Positions 526 to 60,745 of a DNA stretch of 64,000 nt are shown here, one piece after another. How positions within the stretch are numbered: the stretch's first letter is position 1; the number at the start of each line of letters is the position of its first letter. The stretch spans positions 9,734,001 through 9,798,000 of the forward strand of contig NZ_CP011125.1 in assembly GCF_000737325.1 (NCBI RefSeq). The letters are read 5' to 3'. The translations under genes were made by a program, and so were the position numbers. The DNA comes from Sandaracinus amylolyticus. GTDB lineage: Bacteria; Myxococcota_A; Polyangia; Polyangiales; Sandaracinaceae. The notes beneath the pieces were generated by a model, which did no database searches, was not told the DNA's origin, and was given only the letters and a program-made list of their open reading frames with translations.

Positions 526-2931
526 TCAGCTGCGCACGCCGACGATCGGCTCGGGCATCGTCGCCCGGCCCTCTTCGCGCAGCGTCTGGATCGCCCAGAA
601 CACCTGCTCCGCCGTCGCCGGCGACGCGAGCGCGACCGCGCCGCGGCGACCCGTCGCCGCGCACGCCGCGACGGCGTCGCGCAGCGCTTCACGCACGCTG
701 ATCGCGAGCATCAGCGGCGGCTCGCCGACTGCCTTGCTCCCGCCGACCACGCCCTCCTGGCGCGCGCGCTCGAGCAGCTTCGTGCGGAACACCGGCGGAC
801 ACTCGCCGAGGCTCGGCAGCTTGTACGTGCTCGCGTTCGGCGTCCTCAGCGCGCCCTTGTCGTCCCACACCAGCTCTTCCTGGGTGAGCCACCCCGCGCC
901 CTGCGCGAACCCGCCCTCGACCTGGCCGACGTCGATCATCGGAGAGAGCGAGTCGCCCACGTCGTGCAGGATGTCGACGCGGCGAATCGCGTACATCCCG
1001 GTGAACGCGTCGACCTCGACCTCGGTGATCGCCGCGCCGTACGCGAAATAATAGAACGGTCGGCCGCGGCCCTTCTCGCGATCCCAGTGGATCTCCGGCG
1101 TCTTGTAGAAGCCCGTCGCGCTCAGCTGCACGCGCTCGTGATAGGCGCGGTCGATCACCTCGGCCCACGGCAGCTCACGCCCGTCGCCGCGCACCACGCC
1201 GCCCTCGATCGTCACCGCGTCGCTGGTGCATCCGAGCATCGACGCCGCGACCTCGCACACCCGCGCGCGCAGCACGTCGCACGCGTTCTTCACCGCTGCG
1301 CCGTTGAGATCACTGCCGCTCGACGCCGCGGTCGCGCTGGTGTTCGGCACCTTGTCGGTGCGCGTCGGCATGATGCGGATGCACGCGATCGGGAGGCCCA
1401 GCGCGTCCGCCGCGACCTGCAGCATCTTCGTGTGCAGGCCCTGGCCCATCTCGGTGCCGCCGTGGTTGATCTGGACGCTGCCGTCCTTGTAGACGTGCAC
1501 CAGCGCGCCGGCCTGGTTGTACCACTTGGCGGTGAACGAGATTCCGAACTTCACCGGCGTGATCGCCAGTCCGCGTTTGACGCTCTGACTCGATGCGTTG
1601 AATGCATCGATCTCACGACGTCGCGAGTCCCACTGCGCATCCGACTTCAGCTCGCCCCAGATGCGTGCCAGTCGGTCCGCGTCCTCGACGCGCTGTCCGT
1701 AGTGCGTCTCGTGCCCCTCGCGATAGAGGTTCTTCTCGCGCACCACGTCGGCGGGAAGGCCCACCGCGCGCGCCACGCGGTCGAGCACTTCCTCGATCAT
1801 CACCATGCCCTGCGGGCCGCCGAACCCGCGGAACGCCGTGTTCGACGCCTTGTGCGTCTTGCAGACGCGTCCCGTCACCGCCATCGCCGGCACGTAGTAC
1901 GCGTTGTCCGAGTGGAAGAGCGCGCGACCGAGCACCGGGAAGCTCAGATCGAGCGACCACCCACCGTCGCTCCAGAGCGCGAGTCGCAGCGCGCGCAGCG
2001 TCCCGTCGGCGTCGCACCCCACGCGATAACGACCGAGGAACGGATGGCGCTTTCCGGTCAGCACGACGTCGCGCGCGCGATCGAGGCGCACCCGCACCGG
2101 GCGCTTCGTCACGACCGCGCCGATCGCGGCGACGGACGCGAACGGGTTCGCCTGCGTCTCCTTGCCGCCGAAGCCGCCGCCCATGCGCAGCTGCTGCACG
2201 ACCACGTCGCCCGCCGGCACGCCGAGCACGCGCGCGACGACGTCCTGCGTCTCCGTCGGATGCTGCGTGCTCGAGTGCACCATCATCGTGCCCGACTCGT
2301 CGACGTACGCGATCGACGCCTGGGTCTCGAGATAGAACTGCTCCTGACCGCCGACGTAGAGCTCGCCGTCGATCACGATCTTCGAGGCCGCGAGCGCCGC
2401 GTCGACCTCGCCGCGCACGATGCGCTCTTCGTCGGTGTGGAACGCGCCCGCGTCGATCGCCTGCTCGATCGTGAGGATCGCGGCGCGCGGCGTGTACTCC
2501 GCGATCACCCGCGCCGCGCCGAGCTTCGCGGCCTCTTCGCTCTCCGCGAGCACCCACGCGACGGGCATGCCGTGGAAGAGGATCTCGGGACGCGCATCGC
2601 CGTCGCTCGTCGCGGGGCGCGGAAACAGCGGCTCGTCGCGGCGGTTCGCGCCGGTGTCGTTCTCGCCGGGCACGTCGGCCGCGGTCAGCACCTTCACCAC
2701 GCCGCTCACGTGGTACGCGGGCGCGACGTCGAGGCGCTCGAGCCATGCGTGCGCGTGCGGCGCCATCACGGGCCATGCGTGCAGCACGCCGGGCAGTCGC
2801 GTCGCGAGATCGTCGGTGTAGAGCGCAGCGCCGGTGACGTGCGCGGTCGCGCTCTCGTGCGGGATCGATGCGCCCACCGCGCGCGCGCCAGGAGGCGCAA
2901 AGTGCTTCGGGGTCGAGCGAGGCTCGTTCAT
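526..2931 (-). CDS. xdhB: Xanthine dehydrogenase, molybdenum-binding subunit
   Basis: About 801 residues, the usual length for the molybdopterin-binding large subunit of XdhAB-type enzymes, which oxidise hypoxanthine and xanthine to urate. Moco-binding landmarks are GGGFGGKE, AFRGFGGPQG and, near the C-terminus, GGSKAVGEPPLMLA, whose Glu is the catalytic base in the family. The ATG at 2931 is preceded by AAGGATC, a plausible ribosome binding site; an upstream in-frame extension reads into the intron and is rejected. The partner small/FAD subunit gene is 3.7 kb upstream on the same strand rather than adjacent. A group II intron ends within a few tens of bases upstream of the start. Another xanthine-oxidase-family substrate is possible. 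Confidence 0.93.
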   Translation of the reverse strand: MNEPRSTPKHFAPPGARAVGASIPHESATAHVTGAALYTDDLATRLPGVLHAWPVMAPHAHAWLERLDVAPAYHVSGVVKVLTAADVPGENDTGANRRDEPLFPRPATSDGDARPEILFHGMPVAWVLAESEEAAKLGAARVIAEYTPRAAILTIEQAIDAGAFHTDEERIVRGEVDAALAASKIVIDGELYVGGQEQFYLETQASIAYVDESGTMMVHSSTQHPTETQDVVARVLGVPAGDVVVQQLRMGGGFGGKETQANPFASVAAIGAVVTKRPVRVRLDRARDVVLTGKRHPFLGRYRVGCDADGTLRALRLALWSDGGWSLDLSFPVLGRALFHSDNAYYVPAMAVTGRVCKTHKASNTAFRGFGGPQGMVMIEEVLDRVARAVGLPADVVREKNLYREGHETHYGQRVEDADRLARIWGELKSDAQWDSRRREIDAFNASSQSVKRGLAITPVKFGISFTAKWYNQAGALVHVYKDGSVQINHGGTEMGQGLHTKMLQVAADALGLPIACIRIMPTRTDKVPNTSATAASSGSDLNGAAVKNACDVLRARVCEVAASMLGCTSDAVTIEGGVVRGDGRELPWAEVIDRAYHERVQLSATGFYKTPEIHWDREKGRGRPFYYFAYGAAITEVEVDAFTGMYAIRRVDILHDVGDSLSPMIDVGQVEGGFAQGAGWLTQEELVWDDKGALRTPNASTYKLPSLGECPPVFRTKLLERARQEGVVGGSKAVGEPPLMLAISVREALRDAVAACAATGRRGAVALASPATAEQVFWAIQTLREEGRATMPEPIVGVRS

Positions 2932-2987
2932 TGGTAGATCCTTACCTGCTACCGGCCTGCGCCGGCGGTTGGTCAAGACCCCCGTTC

Positions 2988-3020
2988 AAACCGTGCGTGC
3001 GGATTTCCCGCACACGGCTT
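2988..3020 (-). ncRNA. Group II intron domain V
   Basis: The minus strand reads AGCCGTGTGCGG, then GAAAT, then CCGCACGCACGGTTT. This folds as the 34-nt domain V hairpin with the catalytic AGC start, GNRA-like cap and two-base bulge expected for bacterial group II introns. It lies about 25 bases after the maturase stop, where domain V belongs. The intact sequence suggests a splicing-competent intron; splicing itself cannot be judged here. Confidence 0.92.
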
Positions 3021-3045
3021 ACGGGCAGTCTCTCGAGTCGCTGCA

Positions 3046-4497
3046 TTACGCGACCTCCCGGAAGAAGGCTCGCTCGGGGTACTGCACGGTCCCTCGCAGG
3101 CGATGAAGTCCGAGGCTCCAGAAGTACTCGCGCGTCCACCTGCTCGACTCCCCCGGCTTCAGATGCCGGCCCTTGCGCTCCACGCGCAGGTCCCGCAGCC
3201 GACGCCAGACGTAGCTGTCGAGTTGGTTGAATTTCTTGGCGGCATTTCCGGTGCGGAAGTAGTTGCCCCAGCCCCGCAGCACGGGGTTGAGATCGGCGAT
3301 CACCTCGCGGAGATCCGCGTGGCACCGCCTCCTCGGGGTCAGCTCCTTCACGCGCTGTCTCACCCGCTTCATCGCGCGCGCGGACGGCCAGCGATGCAGG
3401 AAGTACAGGCGTCTGCCTTTCTTCTCCCACAGCGCTCCGCTCATGCGTTTGTGCAGGTGATGTCCGAGAAAATCGAAGCCCTGCTTGCCATCGTAGAGCT
3501 CGACTCGCCTCGTCTTGTCCGGATGCAGCTCGAGACCGAGGCGCCCGAGGATGACTCGAATGCGCCTCTCTGCCTCTTCGCACTCGCGCTTCGTCTTGCA
3601 CATCACGACGAAGTCGTCCGCGTAGCGCACCAGCGTCCCGGGCGGGGCGCTCCTGCGCATCCACGTCACGTCGAGCACGTGCAGGTAGATGTTCGAGAGC
3701 AGCGGAGAGATGACTCCGCCCTGCGGCGTTCCCGCGATGTTGCGAGTCACGACGCCCCCGTCCATCACCCCCGCTTCGAGCCACTGCCGCACCAGCTTGA
3801 GCATCCGCCGATCCGAGATGCGTCGAGCGACGAGCTTCATCAGCTTGTCGTGATCGATGCTCCCGAAGTAGTCGCGGATGTCGGCGTCGAGCACGTGGTG
3901 ATGCCCCTTCGCGCCGAGCTTCCTCAGCGTCTCCAGCGCACCCAGCGCGCCCCGCTTCGGCCGGAAGCCCCACGAGCACGGAAGAAAGTCCGCCTCGAAG
4001 ATCGGCTCCAGCACCAGCTTCGCCGCCATCTGGACCACTCGATCCCGGACCGTCGGAATCCCCAGCGGCCGCTTCCTTCCATCTGCCTTCGGGATGTACC
4101 GGCGCAGCACCACCTCGGGCCGGTACGTCTTGCTCCGCAGTGCGTCGCCGAGCTCTTCGAGGAAGCGCTCGACTCCGTACTGCTTCACCTCGGCGATCGT
4201 CTGGCCATCGACGCCCGCCGCGCCCTTGTTCGCCTCGACTCGCTTCCACGCTTCCCGAAGGACGTCACTCCTCCAGATGTGGTCATAAAGAGCGTGGAAA
4301 CGTCTTCCAGGTGCTCGCTTGGCCGCGACCCACAGTCGCCTCTGCAGTTGTCGCACTTCTTCGCGCGGCCTACGGCCGCCGGGGTCGTTAGGTCCGGTCC
4401 TGCCGGCCATTCCCTCGCGCTTACCTGCTTCCTCGACGTGACTGCCCCAGGGACCCTTCCCTCCCGTCGCGTTGTTCTGCACGACGTTCGTCGACAT
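3046..4497 (-). CDS. ltrA: Group II intron reverse transcriptase/maturase
   Basis: About 483 residues. RT landmarks in order are a RT-0/1 region with KGAAGVDGQTI, IPKADGRKRPLGIPTVRDR, a palm motif DADIRDYFGSIDH, TPQGGVISPLLSNIYL and the catalytic YADDFVV. They are followed by a thumb region and a maturase X domain containing GWGNYFRTGNA. No C-terminal HNH endonuclease domain is evident, so mobility would rely on endonuclease-independent routes if it is active. The catalytic Asp residues are present and no frameshift is seen. The start chosen is the ATG of MSTNVVQNN at 4497; longer in-frame extensions run into intron domain I and lack coding character. Confidence 0.93.
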   Translation of the reverse strand: MSTNVVQNNATGGKGPWGSHVEEAGKREGMAGRTGPNDPGGRRPREEVRQLQRRLWVAAKRAPGRRFHALYDHIWRSDVLREAWKRVEANKGAAGVDGQTIAEVKQYGVERFLEELGDALRSKTYRPEVVLRRYIPKADGRKRPLGIPTVRDRVVQMAAKLVLEPIFEADFLPCSWGFRPKRGALGALETLRKLGAKGHHHVLDADIRDYFGSIDHDKLMKLVARRISDRRMLKLVRQWLEAGVMDGGVVTRNIAGTPQGGVISPLLSNIYLHVLDVTWMRRSAPPGTLVRYADDFVVMCKTKRECEEAERRIRVILGRLGLELHPDKTRRVELYDGKQGFDFLGHHLHKRMSGALWEKKGRRLYFLHRWPSARAMKRVRQRVKELTPRRRCHADLREVIADLNPVLRGWGNYFRTGNAAKKFNQLDSYVWRRLRDLRVERKGRHLKPGESSRWTREYFWSLGLHRLRGTVQYPERAFFREVA

Positions 4498-54964: not shown

Positions 54965-55759
54965 ATGCGCGGGCCAGTCGACGACGAGCGGGCGCGGCGC
55001 GTGATCGACGTGATGCGGCGCGTGGCGTTCGCGATCGTCGCCGGGATCGCGGGCGCGTGGGTCGCGCGTGTGTTCCTCACCGTCGCGTTCGGGTTCCCGC
55101 ACTCGGCCGCCGAGATCCTCGCCGAGCCACGGCACGCATGGGCGGCCGGTTGCGCGACGGCGGTCCTCGCGTGGCTCGCGGCGCGGAGCGGCCTCGCGAT
55201 GCTCGGCGCGACCGCGCTCGCCGGATCGCTGACGGGAACCGCGATGGTCGCCGTCGGGTGCTTGGCGCTGGCGATCGAGCACGGACCCGTCGACATGATC
55301 GGCGTGTGGTCGCGCGGCATCATCGCCGCGGCGCTGAGCGTGCCGTTCGGCCTCGTGCTCGGGCTGGTCTCCGGAGTCGCGTTGTCGCCCTTGGACTTGG
55401 GGCTCACGCGCCTCGCCGCGCGTCCGACGGTCAGCACGACGATGCGCGCGCTGCGCGCGAGCGCGGCCTGGGCGGTGTTGCCGCTCGGCCTCGAAGCGTG
55501 CATCGCGGAGCGACCCGTCGGAGCGAGCGAGATCGCGACGACGCTCGCCATGATCGCGCTCGTGGTCGCGACCGGCGCGGCGATCGGCGTCGCGACGCGA
55601 TCGCGGTGGGTGCGCGCGGTGTGTGAGGGACGCATCGCGGGCTGGAGCGTCGCGCTCGACGACGACGGCACGCGCTGGCTGATGCGTGAGGCGCTCGCGG
55701 GTGACGGCGCGTATCGCGACGGCATCGTGCGCACCCGTTGGGGGCGGCTCGATGCGTGA
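54965..55759 (+). CDS. Membrane protein, tandem paralogue 1
   Basis: 264 residues with about six hydrophobic helices. It opens MRGPVDDERARRVIDVMR and ends with a soluble tail (WSVALDDDGTRWLMREA, GAYRDGIVRTRWGRLDA) shared with the next two genes. TAGGCT lies 6 bases before the ATG. It overlaps the next gene by 8 bases (ATGCGTGA). No named family recognised; the conserved C-terminal tail suggests a common cytoplasmic function. Confidence 0.82.
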   Translation: MRGPVDDERARRVIDVMRRVAFAIVAGIAGAWVARVFLTVAFGFPHSAAEILAEPRHAWAAGCATAVLAWLAARSGLAMLGATALAGSLTGTAMVAVGCLALAIEHGPVDMIGVWSRGIIAAALSVPFGLVLGLVSGVALSPLDLGLTRLAARPTVSTTMRALRASAAWAVLPLGLEACIAERPVGASEIATTLAMIALVVATGAAIGVATRSRWVRAVCEGRIAGWSVALDDDGTRWLMREALAGDGAYRDGIVRTRWGRLDA

Positions 55760-56561
55760 GCCGATCGACGACGCGCGGGCGCGGCGCGCCATCGACGTGA
55801 TGCGCGCTGCGGCGTTCGGCATTGTGACGGCGATCCCCGGTGGGCTGGCGGTCCGAGCATTCCTGCCGACGTTCACGCCGGAATCGGCGTACGACATGCC
55901 ACCCGCGCTCGCACGGTCGCTGTCCGACTACGAATGGGCGGCCGTAGCGATCGTCGGCGTCGTTGCGACGTGCGCGGGTTGGTGCTCTCGCGACGCGCGA
56001 CGCGCGCTCCGGGCGATGGCGCTCGCGGGCGTCGCGTGCGCGCCCGTGACGGTGGGCATGGTCGCGTCGCTCCGAGCCGTCGAGGGATGGCCGGAGGTCG
56101 AGCACGCGGGGATGTCCGCCGTGCTCGCGACGATGTGCAGCCTCCCGCTCGGGTTCGTGATCGGGTGGTGCTCCGGCATCGTGTTCGTGCCGCTCGTGAA
56201 CATGCTCGGTGGCCTCGGTCGACGGGTGACGATCACGACGATGCCTCGTGCGCTCTGCACGGGAGCGTCGTGGTGCGCGCTCGGGCTCTCGGTGCCGGCG
56301 ATGTGGGGAGCCCCGGTCACGGGAATGCAAGACGTGGAGACAGCAGGTGCCGCGATCGCCTGGTTGGTCGTGGGCGGCGGTGCGACCGAGGTGCTGCGAC
56401 GACGGCGGCTCGCGAAGCGCGCCGAGCGCGGCGTGGCGATCGGATGGAGCGTCGAGCGCGACGAGGACGGAACGCGCTGGCTGATGCGTGACGCGAACGT
56501 CGGCGACGGCGCGTACCGCGAGGGTGTCGTGCGCGCGCGCTGGGGCCGGCTCGATGCGTGA
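55752..56561 (+). CDS. Membrane protein, tandem paralogue 2
   Basis: 269 residues; closest to the third copy (shared MREPIDDAR, TAIPGGLA, CSLPLGF/CSAPLGL, TITTMPRALC, ending RTRWGRLDA-like). About six to seven hydrophobic helices. Starts inside the end of copy 1 and ends inside the start of copy 3, each through the same 8-base ATGCGTGA junction. Function unknown. Confidence 0.82.
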   Translation: MREPIDDARARRAIDVMRAAAFGIVTAIPGGLAVRAFLPTFTPESAYDMPPALARSLSDYEWAAVAIVGVVATCAGWCSRDARRALRAMALAGVACAPVTVGMVASLRAVEGWPEVEHAGMSAVLATMCSLPLGFVIGWCSGIVFVPLVNMLGGLGRRVTITTMPRALCTGASWCALGLSVPAMWGAPVTGMQDVETAGAAIAWLVVGGGATEVLRRRRLAKRAERGVAIGWSVERDEDGTRWLMRDANVGDGAYREGVVRARWGRLDA

Positions 56562-57360
56562 GCCGATCGACGACGCGCGCGTCGCGGGATGGACCGCCGC
56601 GATGCCCGCGATCGTCTTCGCGACCATCACCGCCATTCCCGGCGGGCTCGCGATCCATGCGCTCATGCCGGCCGTGTTGATGCCGTACGACTTCCCGTCC
56701 GCGATCCGCGGATCGACCGAGGATTACGCGTGGGTGGGCGTGGTGACGACTGCGCTCGTCGCCGCAGCGGCGGCGTCGCACGCGCGGAATCCGTGGCGCG
56801 CGATCCGCGCCGTGTCGATCGCCGGCGTGTGCTGCGCGCCGATCACGCTGATCGTGCTCACGCTGGCGGTGCGCGTCGGCGAGGGTGCGGAGTCGAGCTG
56901 GATCCTCGCGGCGTACGCCCTGTGCGGCACGATCTGCAGCGCGCCGCTCGGGCTCGCGTTGGGCTGGTGCTTCGGGATGCTGCTGTGGCCCGTGGTCTTC
57001 TCGCTCTCGCGCGTCAGCAAGCAGGTGACGATCACGACGGTACCTCGCGCGCTCTGCGCGGCAGCGCTGTGGTGCGCGCTCGGGCTCTCGGTCGCCGCCG
57101 CGATCCGTACGTCGATCACGTGGATGCACGAGCTCGCCGTCGCGGGCGCGGCGATCGCGTGGGCAGTGGTCGTGGGAGTCGCGCTCGAGGTGCAGAGGCG
57201 GCGGCGGCTCGCGTGGTCGGCCGAACACGGCGTGGCGACCGGATGGCGCGTCGAGCGTGACGGGCACGGCACCCGCTGGCTCCTGCGCGAGACACACGCG
57301 GGCGGCGGCGCGTATCGCGAGGGCGTGGTGCGCACGCGATGGGGGCGGCTCGACGCGTGA
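56554..57360 (+). CDS. Membrane protein, tandem paralogue 3
   Basis: 268 residues, same architecture as copies 1 and 2; ends GVVRTRWGRLDA. At its 3' end the junction sequence reads GACGCGTGA instead of GATGCGTGA, so the next start codon of the array is lost. This indicates the array once had, or was copied from, a longer unit. The segment CAPITLIVL and CCAP-type Cys clusters vary among copies. Confidence 0.82.
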   Translation: MREPIDDARVAGWTAAMPAIVFATITAIPGGLAIHALMPAVLMPYDFPSAIRGSTEDYAWVGVVTTALVAAAAASHARNPWRAIRAVSIAGVCCAPITLIVLTLAVRVGEGAESSWILAAYALCGTICSAPLGLALGWCFGMLLWPVVFSLSRVSKQVTITTVPRALCAAALWCALGLSVAAAIRTSITWMHELAVAGAAIAWAVVVGVALEVQRRRRLAWSAEHGVATGWRVERDGHGTRWLLRETHAGGGAYREGVVRTRWGRLDA

Positions 57361-57400
57361 GTTGCGAGCCACCACGCGACGGAGCGATCGTCTCGCTCGC

Positions 57401-57646
57401 ATGACCGATCGCGAGAACGCTCGACGCAAAGCGCTCCAGGCCGCGCGCGCCGTCACGCTCGGGCTCGCCATCGCGGCGACCACCGCAGGATGCGAGCAGG
57501 TCGTCGATCGCGCGTGCGCGTTCTCGTTCACCGAGAACACGCGCTACTGCTGCGAGCGACAGCCGTTGTCCTACTACGACCCGGCGACCCGCACGTGCAT
57601 GCGCGCGATGATCGGTCCGTTCGTGCCGCCGGACATGCCCGCATGA
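57401..57646 (+). CDS. Small lipoprotein A of ferritin-like operon
   Basis: 81 residues. A basic N-terminus (MTDRENARRKALQAAR), membrane segment and lipobox TTAGC are followed by EQVVDRACAF, TENTRYCCERQ and one more Cys. Duplicated in the next gene (ENTRYCCDRR). ATGA overlap with that gene implies translational coupling. No known family. Confidence 0.78.
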   Translation: MTDRENARRKALQAARAVTLGLAIAATTAGCEQVVDRACAFSFTENTRYCCERQPLSYYDPATRTCMRAMIGPFVPPDMPA

Positions 57647-57888
57647 GCGACGATCGCGAGAACGCTCGGCGCCGAGCGCTGCAGGCCGCGCGCGCGGTCA
57701 CGCTCGGCCTCGCGATCGCGACCACCGCCGCGGGCTGCGAGCAGGTGATCGATCGCGCCTGCGGCTTCGCCGAGAACACGCGCTACTGCTGCGATCGCCG
57801 GCACTTCATGTGGGACTCGACGGCGAACGTGTGCCGTCCACCGCTCCCGGTGCCCGGGCCCTTCACGCCGCCCGATCTGCCCGCATGA
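57643..57888 (+). CDS. Small lipoprotein B of ferritin-like operon
   Basis: 81 residues, paralogue of the previous gene: MSDDRENARRRALQAAR, lipobox TAAGC, EQVIDRACGF, ENTRYCCDRR, and PGPFTPPDLPA at the end. Overlaps both neighbours by ATGA. The conserved Cys-Cys pair and a further Cys may bind metal or form a disulfide. Confidence 0.78.
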   Translation: MSDDRENARRRALQAARAVTLGLAIATTAAGCEQVIDRACGFAENTRYCCDRRHFMWDSTANVCRPPLPVPGPFTPPDLPA

Positions 57889-58730
57889 CCCGCGGCCGAC
57901 TGCGCGTCGACGTCGGAACGTCGCCGCTCGCGACCGAGCACACGCGGCTCGTGCGCACCGCGCTGCGTCGCGGCGAGCTCGCGCCCGAGATCCCGCCGGG
58001 CGCGCGGCTCACCGGCGACTTCTCCGAGCACGCGATCACGCTCGCCCGCACCTCGTGGCTCGCGCGCATGGAGCACGAGCACCAGTCCGCTGCCGTGTTC
58101 TCGCGCCTCTTGCCGCACCTCATCGAGGCCGAGGCGCCGCTCGAGTACAAGACCGTCGCGCTGCGCATGTCGATGGACGAGCTGCGTCACGCCGCGCTCT
58201 GCGGCGACGTCGTGCGGCTGCTCGGCGGCGAGCCCGAGGTGGAGCGCGAGCTCGCGACCGAGCCGCTCCCCGAGCACGCCGGAACCACCGCGCGCGAGCG
58301 CGCGATGCGCAACGTCCTCTTCGTCTCGTGCCTCAGCGAGAGCATCGCCGCGCCGCTGCTCGCGGCCGAGCGCGAGCTCGCGAGCGAGCCCCACGTGCGC
58401 CTCGTGCTCGAGCAGCTCGCCGCGGACGAGACGCTCCACGCACGCTTCGGATGGGCGTACCTGCGCGACACGATCACCGACGCCGAGCGCGCCGGGATCC
58501 AGCGTTATCTGCCGCTCGCGCTCGGCACGATCGAAGCGCGCATGCACGAGGTGATGACGCTCGAGCTCCAGGTCGACGCCGCGCTCGAGGACGAGCTCGC
58601 CGCGCTCGGCGTCACGATGGGCGATCGCAGCCGCGCCCTCATGGACGAGGTCGTCGCGACCGTCGTGCTCCCGGCGCTCGACGCGCTCGGCCTCGACGCG
58701 CAGCGCGCCTGGCGCGAGCGCATCGTGTGA
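57885..58730 (+). CDS. Ferritin-like diiron-fold protein
   Basis: 281 residues, largely helical. Putative metal ligands sit in four helices: ARMEHEHQSAAVF, MDELRHAALC (ExxRH), CLSESIAAP and AADETLHARFGW (ExxH). This pattern fits a diiron ferritin-like four-helix bundle. It overlaps lipoprotein B by ATGA. The activity (oxygenase or peroxidase-like) is unknown; coupling to two periplasmic-facing lipoproteins is unusual for a cytosolic protein. Confidence 0.82.
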   Translation: MTRGRLRVDVGTSPLATEHTRLVRTALRRGELAPEIPPGARLTGDFSEHAITLARTSWLARMEHEHQSAAVFSRLLPHLIEAEAPLEYKTVALRMSMDELRHAALCGDVVRLLGGEPEVERELATEPLPEHAGTTARERAMRNVLFVSCLSESIAAPLLAAERELASEPHVRLVLEQLAADETLHARFGWAYLRDTITDAERAGIQRYLPLALGTIEARMHEVMTLELQVDAALEDELAALGVTMGDRSRALMDEVVATVVLPALDALGLDAQRAWRERIV

Positions 58731-59081: not shown

Positions 59082-59279
59082 TCAGCTCGCGTCGGCGTCG
59101 GTCGCGCCACCGGGCTTCGGTGCGCCCCGACCACCACCGCCGCCCGCGTCGGGATCGGTGGCCGTCTTCGCGCCCGGGCCGAGGTTGCCGCCGACGCGCT
59201 CGATCGCGCGGCCGGTCGAGCTCCGCTTCACCACCACGTCGTCGTCGGACAGCGTGCGCTTCTGCTTCGAGTCGCTCAC
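59082..59279 (-). CDS. Small protein coupled to ECF sigma factor, related to Tat-repeat proteins
   Basis: 65 residues. The N-terminus KRTLSDDDVVVKRSSTGR aligns with KKTLEDADLVTERPMGRR and KRSLRDEELITQRSIGRR of the Tat proteins at 41525 and 41023. The second half is TDPDAGGGGGRGAPKPGGATD, a shortened version of their Asp/Gly/Arg repeats. There is no hydrophobic signal. The ATG overlaps the sigma stop (ATGA). It could be a regulator, adaptor or degenerate family member; it does not look like a standard anti-sigma factor. Confidence 0.72.
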   Translation of the reverse strand: MSDSKQKRTLSDDDVVVKRSSTGRAIERVGGNLGPGAKTATDPDAGGGGGRGAPKPGGATDADAS

Positions 59280-59941
59280 CCGCTCATGCTCTCACGAATC
59301 GCGCGCAGCACGGCCGCGCAGATGCGATCGCAGCGCTCGCCGAGGAACGGGAAGAGCTCGCGCGCGCTCGTCTCGAGCTGCTCCTCGATGCCGGCGCGCA
59401 GCGCGCGTCGCGCCCGGTGCAGCCGGACGCGCACGGCTTCTTCGGTGAGGCCGAGCACCTCGCCAACTTCGGCGCTCGAGAGCTCCTCGAGGTCACGCAG
59501 CACCAGCACGGTGCGGAACGCCTCGGGCAGCGCGTCGATCGCGCGCTCGAGCATCGCGCGCACCTCGGCGCGCGTGGTCTCGTCCTCGGGGCTCGGCATC
59601 GCGGGCGACGCACGATCGTCGACGAGCTCGAGGTGATCGTGCCCGCGCCCTCGCAGCCGATGGAGCGCCTCGCGCGCCACGATGCGCGTGAGCCACGTCG
59701 AGAAGCGCGCGCCGCCGTTCCACTGCGCGAGGTGGGTGTACGCCGAGAGCCACGCCTGCTGCGCCGCGTCCTCGGCCTCCGCGTCGCTGCGCAGGATCGC
59801 GCGCGCGGTGCGGAACACGCGCTGGTTGTGGCGCCGCATCAGCGCCTCGAAGCGCGCGGCGTCGCCGGCGAGGACCTGCGCGACGATGATCGCGTCGTCC
59901 GGCTCGTCTGCGGTGCGCGGAAGGGACACGTCGGGCTTCAT
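59276..59941 (-). CDS. ECF RNA polymerase sigma factor
   Basis: 221 residues. Region 2: FEALMRRHNQRVFRTARAIL, then EDAAQQAWLSAYTHLAQW and FSTWLTRIVAREALHRLRG. Region 4: DALPEAFRTVLVLRDLEELSSAEVGEVLGLTEEAVRVRLHRARRAL. The C-terminal tail (RELFPFLGERCDRICAAVL) resembles the sensor tail of sigma factors that lack a separate anti-sigma. An ECF-like promoter (GTAACG-N16-CCTC) precedes it, so autoregulation is likely. Confidence 0.93.
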   Translation of the reverse strand: MKPDVSLPRTADEPDDAIIVAQVLAGDAARFEALMRRHNQRVFRTARAILRSDAEAEDAAQQAWLSAYTHLAQWNGGARFSTWLTRIVAREALHRLRGRGHDHLELVDDRASPAMPSPEDETTRAEVRAMLERAIDALPEAFRTVLVLRDLEELSSAEVGEVLGLTEEAVRVRLHRARRALRAGIEEQLETSARELFPFLGERCDRICAAVLRAIRESMSG

Positions 59942-59949
59942 GCTCGAGA

Positions 59950-60006
59950 GAGGAGCGCTCCGGGCTCGACGTTACAACTCGTAACGCATCGCGCGAAGCC
60001 GTCCTC
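59950..60006. promoter_or_regulatory. Divergent ECF-type promoter pair
   Basis: The palindrome CGTTAC-AACTC-GTAACG (59970-59986) supplies a GTAACG -35 in each direction. Exactly 16 bases further out on each side stands CCTC (60003-60006 on plus; 59953-59950 on minus). The two half-promoters share only these boxes, as expected for true promoter elements. They point into the sigma gene and the cytochrome-like gene. Confidence 0.65.
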
Positions 60007-60024
60007 GATGGGCTCGGAGGATCG

Positions 60025-60705
60025 ATGCCCACATTCGCTGCGCTCGCGCTCGCCACACCGCTCTTCGGGCTCTCGCTGCAGGTGCCCGTCCTCGCTTCTC
60101 CGGAGCTCCATCCCGACGTCGTCGCACAGCTCGCGCCCGGCGCGCCCGATCCCGCGCAGCTCGAGGACGCCGCGATCGCCGCGCAGCTGCGCCAGCGTCA
60201 GGAGATCGCGCTCGTGCATCGCGCGTTCGGCGTCGCGACGTGGGCGTCGATGGCGGCGACCGCGGTGCTCGGCTTCATCCAGTTCGGCGACGAGTACGGC
60301 TTCCACGGCGCGCGCTCCGAGACCGCGTGCGCGCAGGGCACCGCGGTGCTCCAGGACTTCTGCGAGGGCACGCCGTGGCCCCACGCTGTCGCGGGGTTCA
60401 CCACGGCCGCGCTCTACTTCACGACGTTCACGCTCTCGTTCTTCATGCCCGATCCGCTCGACCTCGAGCACCAGCAGTCCGACTGGGCGGAGCGCGTGCG
60501 CATCCATCGCGCGCTGCGGTGGGTGCACCTCGGCGGCGTGGTGCTGCAAGCGCTGCTGGGGATCTTCATCGCGAACCACGAGGCGTTCGGGCTCGACACG
60601 AACGACGACTTCGACGCGCTGCAGGCGCTCGCCGGGGTGCACATGGGCGTCGGCATCGTGACGTTCGGTGCCCTCAGCGCAGCGGCGGCGCTGGTGACCT
60701 TCTAG
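60025..60705 (+). CDS. Membrane protein, cytochrome b561-like
   Basis: 226 residues; a signal/anchor segment, then four hydrophobic helices each beginning near a His: [52 protein letters not shown] and [12 protein letters not shown]. Paired His in four helices suggests b-type haem binding as in cytochrome b561 proteins. A loop carries two Cys. The ATG follows CGGAGGA. Shares the divergent ECF promoter with the sigma gene. Confidence 0.72.
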
Positions 60706-60745
60706 AGCGAGAGGCTTCGCCTCGACGTGAGGCGAAGCCTCGCTC
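60705..60745. terminator. Bidirectional terminator
   Basis: GAGCG, AG bulge, AGGCTTCGCCTC, loop GACGT, GAGGCGAAGCCT, CGCTC. Strong 17-bp stem between convergent genes; it begins at the stop codon of the plus-strand gene. Confidence 0.85.

Follow-up and report, generated by a model that had tools for sequence, protein, structure and literature searches.

Two divergent ECF sigma factor promoters predicted to serve autoactivation and a haem-protein regulon in Sandaracinus amylolyticus

What is the function of the 57-bp element that separates the divergent genes for an ECF sigma factor and a b561-like membrane protein in Sandaracinus amylolyticus, and which protein reads it? The element occupies positions 59950-60006 of the window, that is, the entire 64,000-nt stretch of contig NZ_CP011125.1 that was analysed (contig positions 9734001-9798000). 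Read directly, it runs from 59950 as GAGG AGCGCTCCGGGCTCGA CGTTAC AACTC GTAACG CATCGCGCGAAGCCGT CCTC to 60006; each strand carries GTAACG, 16 nt and CCTC, and the two candidate promoters point outward from the central AACTC. The paired boxes and the spacings claimed in the sequence-only reading are exact: both spacers are precisely 16 nt long and bear no sequence relation to each other. The gene starts are likewise as first claimed, with the ECF gene at 59276-59941 on the minus strand, a 65-codon gene at its stop and the b561-like gene from 60025 on the plus strand. The features of the locus are the following.

59082 to 59279, minus strand: gene for a 65-aa protein, its GTG start overlapping the stop codon of the ECF gene; of the loci fetched, only those of this genome (G000) and the sister species (G002) have it
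59276 to 59941, minus strand: ECF sigma factor, 221 aa, PRK11922 family (NF008888, 247 bits, cut-off 204)
59309 to 59353, minus strand: C-terminal tail F-x-F-x-G-x-R-C-D-R, codons 197-211, from the family alignment
59408 to 59440, minus strand: recognition helix EAVRVRLHRAR, codons 168-178; V172 and A169 are the counterparts of the GTAAC-reading residues of SigD
59950 to 59953, minus strand: predicted -10 box CCTC of the ECF promoter, 8 nt from the ECF ATG at 59941
59970 to 59975, minus strand: predicted -35 box GTAACG of the ECF promoter; the preceding T is also usual in relatives (TGTAACG)
59970 to 59986, no strand: palindrome CGTTAC-N5-GTAACG formed by the two -35 boxes; once in the genome, the palindrome form not conserved
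59981 to 59986, plus strand: predicted -35 box GTAACG of the divergent promoter, from sequence reading and the genome pattern scan
60003 to 60006, plus strand: predicted -10 box CCTC of the divergent promoter, 18 nt from the b561-like ATG at 60025
60016 to 60020, plus strand: putative Shine-Dalgarno site GGAGG of the b561-like gene, from sequence reading
60025 to 60705, plus strand: b561-like membrane protein, 226 aa, four helices, with invariant H65, H120, H161 and H206

The preferred reading, with a probability of about 0.86, is that the divergent GTAACG-N16-CCTC pair is recognized by the adjacent ECF sigma factor, which would activate its own gene together with the 65-aa gene, the b561-like gene and, in trans, a cytochrome c gene. 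The genome-wide distribution of the pattern, counted on both strands of the 10,327,335-bp genome with the reversed pattern as the control, bears on this proposal through the positions of the matches and not through their number, because the four matches to GTAACG-N16-CCTC are at the chance level (three for the reversed control). Three of the four are located 8, 10 and 18 nt before the starts of the ECF, cytochrome c and b561-like genes, respectively, against an expectation of about 2e-5 per given 100-nt strand-specific stretch (four in 20.65 Mb of strand). The scan, which had been put forward as a check in the sequence-only reading, thus finds the ECF and b561-like genes and an unlinked cytochrome c gene; the accompanying argument that such matching is unlikely by chance holds for the positions at gene starts, but not for the genome count alone. 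The third match begins at genome position 7398331, 2.4 Mb from the ECF locus, and leaves 10 nt to the ATG of a gene for a lipoprotein with a CxxCH haem site; it came out of a blind pattern scan, and the gene was recognized only afterwards as the partner of the ECF. The looser pattern GTAACV-N16-VBTC shows no genome-wide enrichment (20 matches compared with 33 for the control) and therefore cannot define the regulon on its own.

The fourth match (G000:C1:9575263-9575288, corresponding to L058:4264-4289) overlaps the beginning of a desaturase gene in antisense, has no evident gene downstream of it and was rejected as a regulon target. The DNA beyond it (L058, L059) is near-identical in the two species, with very few changes in 114 nt, which is unusually high intergenic conservation for this species pair.

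The sister species supports the preferred reading. Its ECF is 91% identical, and GTAACG-N16-CCTC is again found before the ECF gene and before the cytochrome gene that carries it here; the spacers and flanks of the ECF box have diverged, and the box itself has been kept. The palindrome is absent in this species, where a single GTAACG-N16-CCTC is found at the ECF gene. This observation is pertinent to the alternative under which the palindrome is the operator of a dimeric regulator acting on the divergent genes, the CCTC boxes being there by chance. Perfect 6-bp arms, a 5-bp centre and the location between divergent genes are what such an operator could look like, but the palindrome occurs only once in the whole genome, the cytochrome promoters have one box only, and NCTC is conserved at exactly N16 among the ECF relatives. 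Moreover, divergent promoter pairs facing a cytochrome c gene are found in three further genera (L007, L063 and L088), and there the -35 boxes are 14, 14 and 15 bp apart, compared with 5 bp here. As the palindrome is not conserved in the sister species or in the other divergent pairs, the operator explanation is rejected as very improbable. The notion that the pair is built on a palindrome falls for the same reason: the gap varies, so that the functional unit appears to be the promoter pair, and the palindrome a by-product of closely placed boxes. The gaps differ by 9-10 bp, nearly a full turn of the helix, which is not necessarily significant.

The distribution of the box among more distant relatives further argues for recognition by the local ECF family. 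Of the 38 ECF relatives, 11 have GTAAC-N16-NBTC within 200 nt upstream, whereas the other spacings, from 8 to 25, yield 0-3 cases each; the carriers of GTAAC-N16-NNTC include other families and classes, and TGTAACG is the most frequent form upstream of the GTAAC-type relatives. Many of the remaining relatives have GGGAAC[CG], a spacer of 15-16 nt (counting from the second base beyond GGAAC) and then ACTC or CGTC. A conserved -35/-10 pair at a fixed spacing thus stands upstream of the sigma gene and its putative targets, as is expected of an ECF promoter. Taken at the level of sequence comparison, these findings strongly support the interpretation of the 57-bp element as two divergent ECF promoters serving autoactivation and a haem-protein regulon.

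Both promoters could also be real and yet be read by another ECF, in which case the local sigma would be a target and not an autoregulator. The genome contains 48 ECF-like matches that could share specificity, and the GTAAC box is used by further ECF groups. However, the box accompanies the local ECF family in different taxonomic families and classes and varies with a residue of the recognition helix, and the local helix has residues of the GTAAC type, which makes recognition by another ECF very unlikely. In the local helix, E168-A-V-R-V-R-L-H-R-A-R178, the segment A169-V170-R171-V172 resembles SigD of Corynebacterium. The C. glutamicum SigD (AVRV) reads GTAAC followed by A or G, whereas SigH (TVMS) reads GGAA followed by T or C, and in molecular models SigD sets its Val and Ala against the methyl group of T, while the Ser of SigH is bonded to G (PMC6338062, PMC11588781).

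Within the family, position 172 is Val or Ile in 15 of the 17 relatives with a GTAAC box and Thr or Ser in all 14 with a GGAAC box; relatives with Thr or Ser mostly have GGGAAC promoters. Seventeen loci read later include 12 with Val and GTAAC and one with Thr and GTAACC, and the pooled counts are 27 of 30 Val or Ile with GTAAC versus 14 of 14 Thr or Ser with GGAAC. The Fisher values, 5e-7 for the first set and 6e-9 with the later loci, overstate the link, because the correlation has little phylogenetic depth and independent switches on the tree are few (three changes, two to three independent pairs, sign test not significant). Three exceptions, L083, L085 and L231, combine Thr in the helix with TGTAACC boxes, so that Val is apparently not strictly needed for GTAAC. 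Nevertheless, the comparison supports the view that the local helix residues fit the reading of GTAAC by the local sigma. The switch parallels that between SigD and SigH, with GTAAC versus GGAA(T/C) read by AVRV versus TVMS, but those are two sigmas of one organism with GAT/GTT as the -10 element, whereas here the switch occurs within one family across species.

The match of the ECF to NF008888 covers residues 11-218. A search of the genome contigs with the ECF protein returned only distant ECFs. Beyond the helix, the protein has a short tail in which R203 and C204 are invariant in the 36 aligned PRK11922 members; the invariant R-C tail is a feature found in the present comparison and is not part of any published definition of PRK11922. 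The lower-scoring ECFs (L097-L109) are without the C-terminal tail. Over 208 aa, the protein is 41% identical to RpoE8 of S. meliloti, a member of ECF29, and the tail FPFAGKRCERLT is aligned. The two share the F-x-F-x-G-x-R-C tail, the layout of their own promoters, the lack of an identified anti-sigma and electron-transfer proteins among the neighbours (PMC6180224). They differ in that RpoE8 has Thr in the helix and a blue-copper neighbour, compared with Val and haem proteins here, and in that RpoE8 has two GGGAAC-type sites ending in CATCCAA, compared with GTAACG and CCTC. The relation to RpoE8, the C-terminal extension and the absence of a recognizable linked anti-sigma are all as in ECF29, but the ECF29 promoter, GGGAAC / GCATCCAA, is not found at the local gene, which has GTAACG-N16-CCTC; on account of this difference, we call the local sigma ECF29-like and do not file it under ECF29.

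An assignment to ECF16 from the GTAAC box was rejected as well. The ECF16 factors, SigF of Caulobacter and EcfF of Bradyrhizobium, do have a GTAAC -35 box, in GTAACC-N16-CGAA (PMC3511200) and GTAAC(g,a)-N14-15-(c,t)CG(t,a) (PMC3420878), respectively, along with known autoregulation and stress-response regulons. However, these groups have membrane anti-sigma factors (DUF1109; OsrA) and other -10 elements, whereas here the -10 box is CCTC rather than CGAA and no DUF1109-type membrane anti-sigma is adjacent. The comparison with SigF that had been drawn earlier is accordingly apt for the box with N16, but does not place the local sigma in the SigF group.

The open reading frames and the family profiles of the neighbours reveal no recognizable anti-sigma gene adjoining the ECF gene; hence, the likeliest route of control over sigma activity is the C-terminal tail, which holds the invariant Cys204, or else the level of expression alone. 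The 65-aa protein, which has no membrane segment according to the ORF and family check, may be an unrecognized anti-sigma; its gene differs from that of the sister species by 13 synonymous and 6 nonsynonymous codon changes. There is a resemblance to the CorE-type factors of Myxococcus (ECF238; PMC8999054), which are myxobacterial, lack an anti-sigma and carry Cys in a C-terminal extension, but CorE has a Cys-rich domain with a CxC motif, whereas the local tail is short, with one invariant Cys. The ECF29 group is listed among those with regulatory extensions; in 2018, detailed work on an ECF29 sigma was still lacking, and the regulation of RpoE8 was described as a mystery (PMC6180224). Single-sequence structure models of the ECF and the b561-like protein, with mean pLDDT of 46 and 53, are too poor to use.

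The predicted targets differ in how firmly they are tied to the sigma. Judging from gene neighbourhoods, the usual partner of the sigma in Myxococcota is a c-type cytochrome lipoprotein. A cytochrome c of the same type as the one unlinked here is ECF-adjacent in many other genera, in relatives from other families: divergent in the three pairs mentioned above, upstream in L006, L074 and L079, and downstream in L064, L066-L071, L073, L076 and L095. The cytochrome gene has a GTAAC-N16-NNTC box of its own in L006, L007, L063, L079, L088 and L095, and also in L235. In L061, the cytochrome gene of the third match faces a convergent gene (about 2441-3280, minus strand) that encodes the motif GGCFWCME of peptide methionine sulfoxide reductase A.

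The b561-like gene is the weakest link among the targets. The gene is absent from the ECF locus of the sister species, where homology resumes with a thiolase block, at window position 60741, that lies 70 kb away in that genome. The protein scores above the cut-off with no Pfam or NCBIfam family, has six paralogues in the genome and belongs to a family with four invariant His and two invariant Cys, and is likely to carry two b haems. GTAAC-N16-NNTC was absent upstream of 28 of the 29 homologues checked, the exception being L126 with GTAACG-N16-GGTC; b561-like homologues were accordingly rejected as general targets, and the regulon membership of the local gene looks like a local gain. These facts, the gene missing at the sister locus and homologues mostly without the box, are those expected if the leftward, ECF promoter alone were functional and the rightward boxes coincidental or decayed. 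Against this possibility, the rightward boxes reproduce exactly, and in the correct orientation, a pattern with four occurrences in 10.3 Mb; they end 18 nt upstream of the ATG and are followed by a Shine-Dalgarno site. Boxes of the same type also precede divergent haem-protein genes in the three other pairs. A single functional promoter is, on balance, very unlikely.

The preferred reading, with both promoters served by the local sigma, corresponds to the earlier claim that the sigma activates its own gene, the 65-aa partner and the b561-like gene, which gains support, at the predicted level, from the scan, the sister-species ECF box, the divergent pairs and the helix residues. We infer the following mechanism, from transcription itself and its start sites to the activating signal and the role in electron transfer. 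The leftward promoter would let the sigma transcribe its own gene along with the 65-aa gene coupled to it, closing a positive feedback loop. The rightward promoter would yield an mRNA for the b561-like haem protein of the membrane, the Shine-Dalgarno site lying in its short leader, and the c-type cytochrome lipoprotein gene 2.4 Mb away would be driven in trans. More active sigma would then mean more of its own product, of the b561-like protein and of the distant cytochrome, and thus a larger supply of haem proteins for electron transfer at the membrane; as a trigger of the loop, the tail Cys is the leading candidate. With the -35 boxes only 5 bp apart, polymerases probably cannot occupy both promoters simultaneously.

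The sigma message itself is predicted to be leaderless or nearly so, with a start 0-4 nt upstream of the ATG or at the ATG itself, given the 8 nt from CCTC to the ATG and a start assumed to fall 6-9 nt after the -10 box; the EcfF start was mapped 6 bp after the -10 (PMC3420878). Those 8 nt (59942-59949) contain no Shine-Dalgarno site. Of 28 GTAAC-type loci, 16 have the same 8 nt between the -10 box and the ATG and 21 have 7-11 nt, with the -10 box shifted by one base in a few of these, and leaderless sigma messages are predicted across the GTAAC-type family.

Homologous sigma factors are also encoded on plasmids of rhizobia, Microvirga and the Burkholderia group (L199-L203). In L199-L202, DUF4142-cupredoxin-sigma operons are preceded by a GGGAAC-type site, an arrangement predicted to be an ECF29-type regulon. 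The Sandaracinus locus provides this ECF29-related family with a readable promoter and a candidate minimal regulon in a fully sequenced organism, together with a natural switch of -35 specificity that tracks one helix residue and, in the invariant tail Cys, a place to look for sigma control. Tentatively, an ECF29-like branch lacking a recognized anti-sigma could be envisaged in which the Cys tail senses redox state, metal or haem, a leaderless feedback switch governs a small haem module for electron transfer, and TGTAACG, in place of the GGGAAC of relatives, goes with the Thr/Val change in the helix.

Several additional observations pertain to the neighbourhood and the genome. The gene at 57810-58730, with weak similarity to AurF/rubrerythrin (di-iron) proteins, lies beside the sigma gene also in the sister species (91% identity). 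Two tandem paralogue pairs, 55686-57360 and 57257-57888, encode similar 290-aa membrane proteins and small Cys-containing putative lipoproteins, respectively. Elsewhere in the genome, a gene for a MarR/OhrR-like regulator has GTAACA-N16-ACTC 15 nt upstream of its GTG start (L149, G000:C1:1581717-1581742; L162 in the sister species), with a spacer that has slightly diverged between the two species, and this regulator is a possible further member of the regulon.
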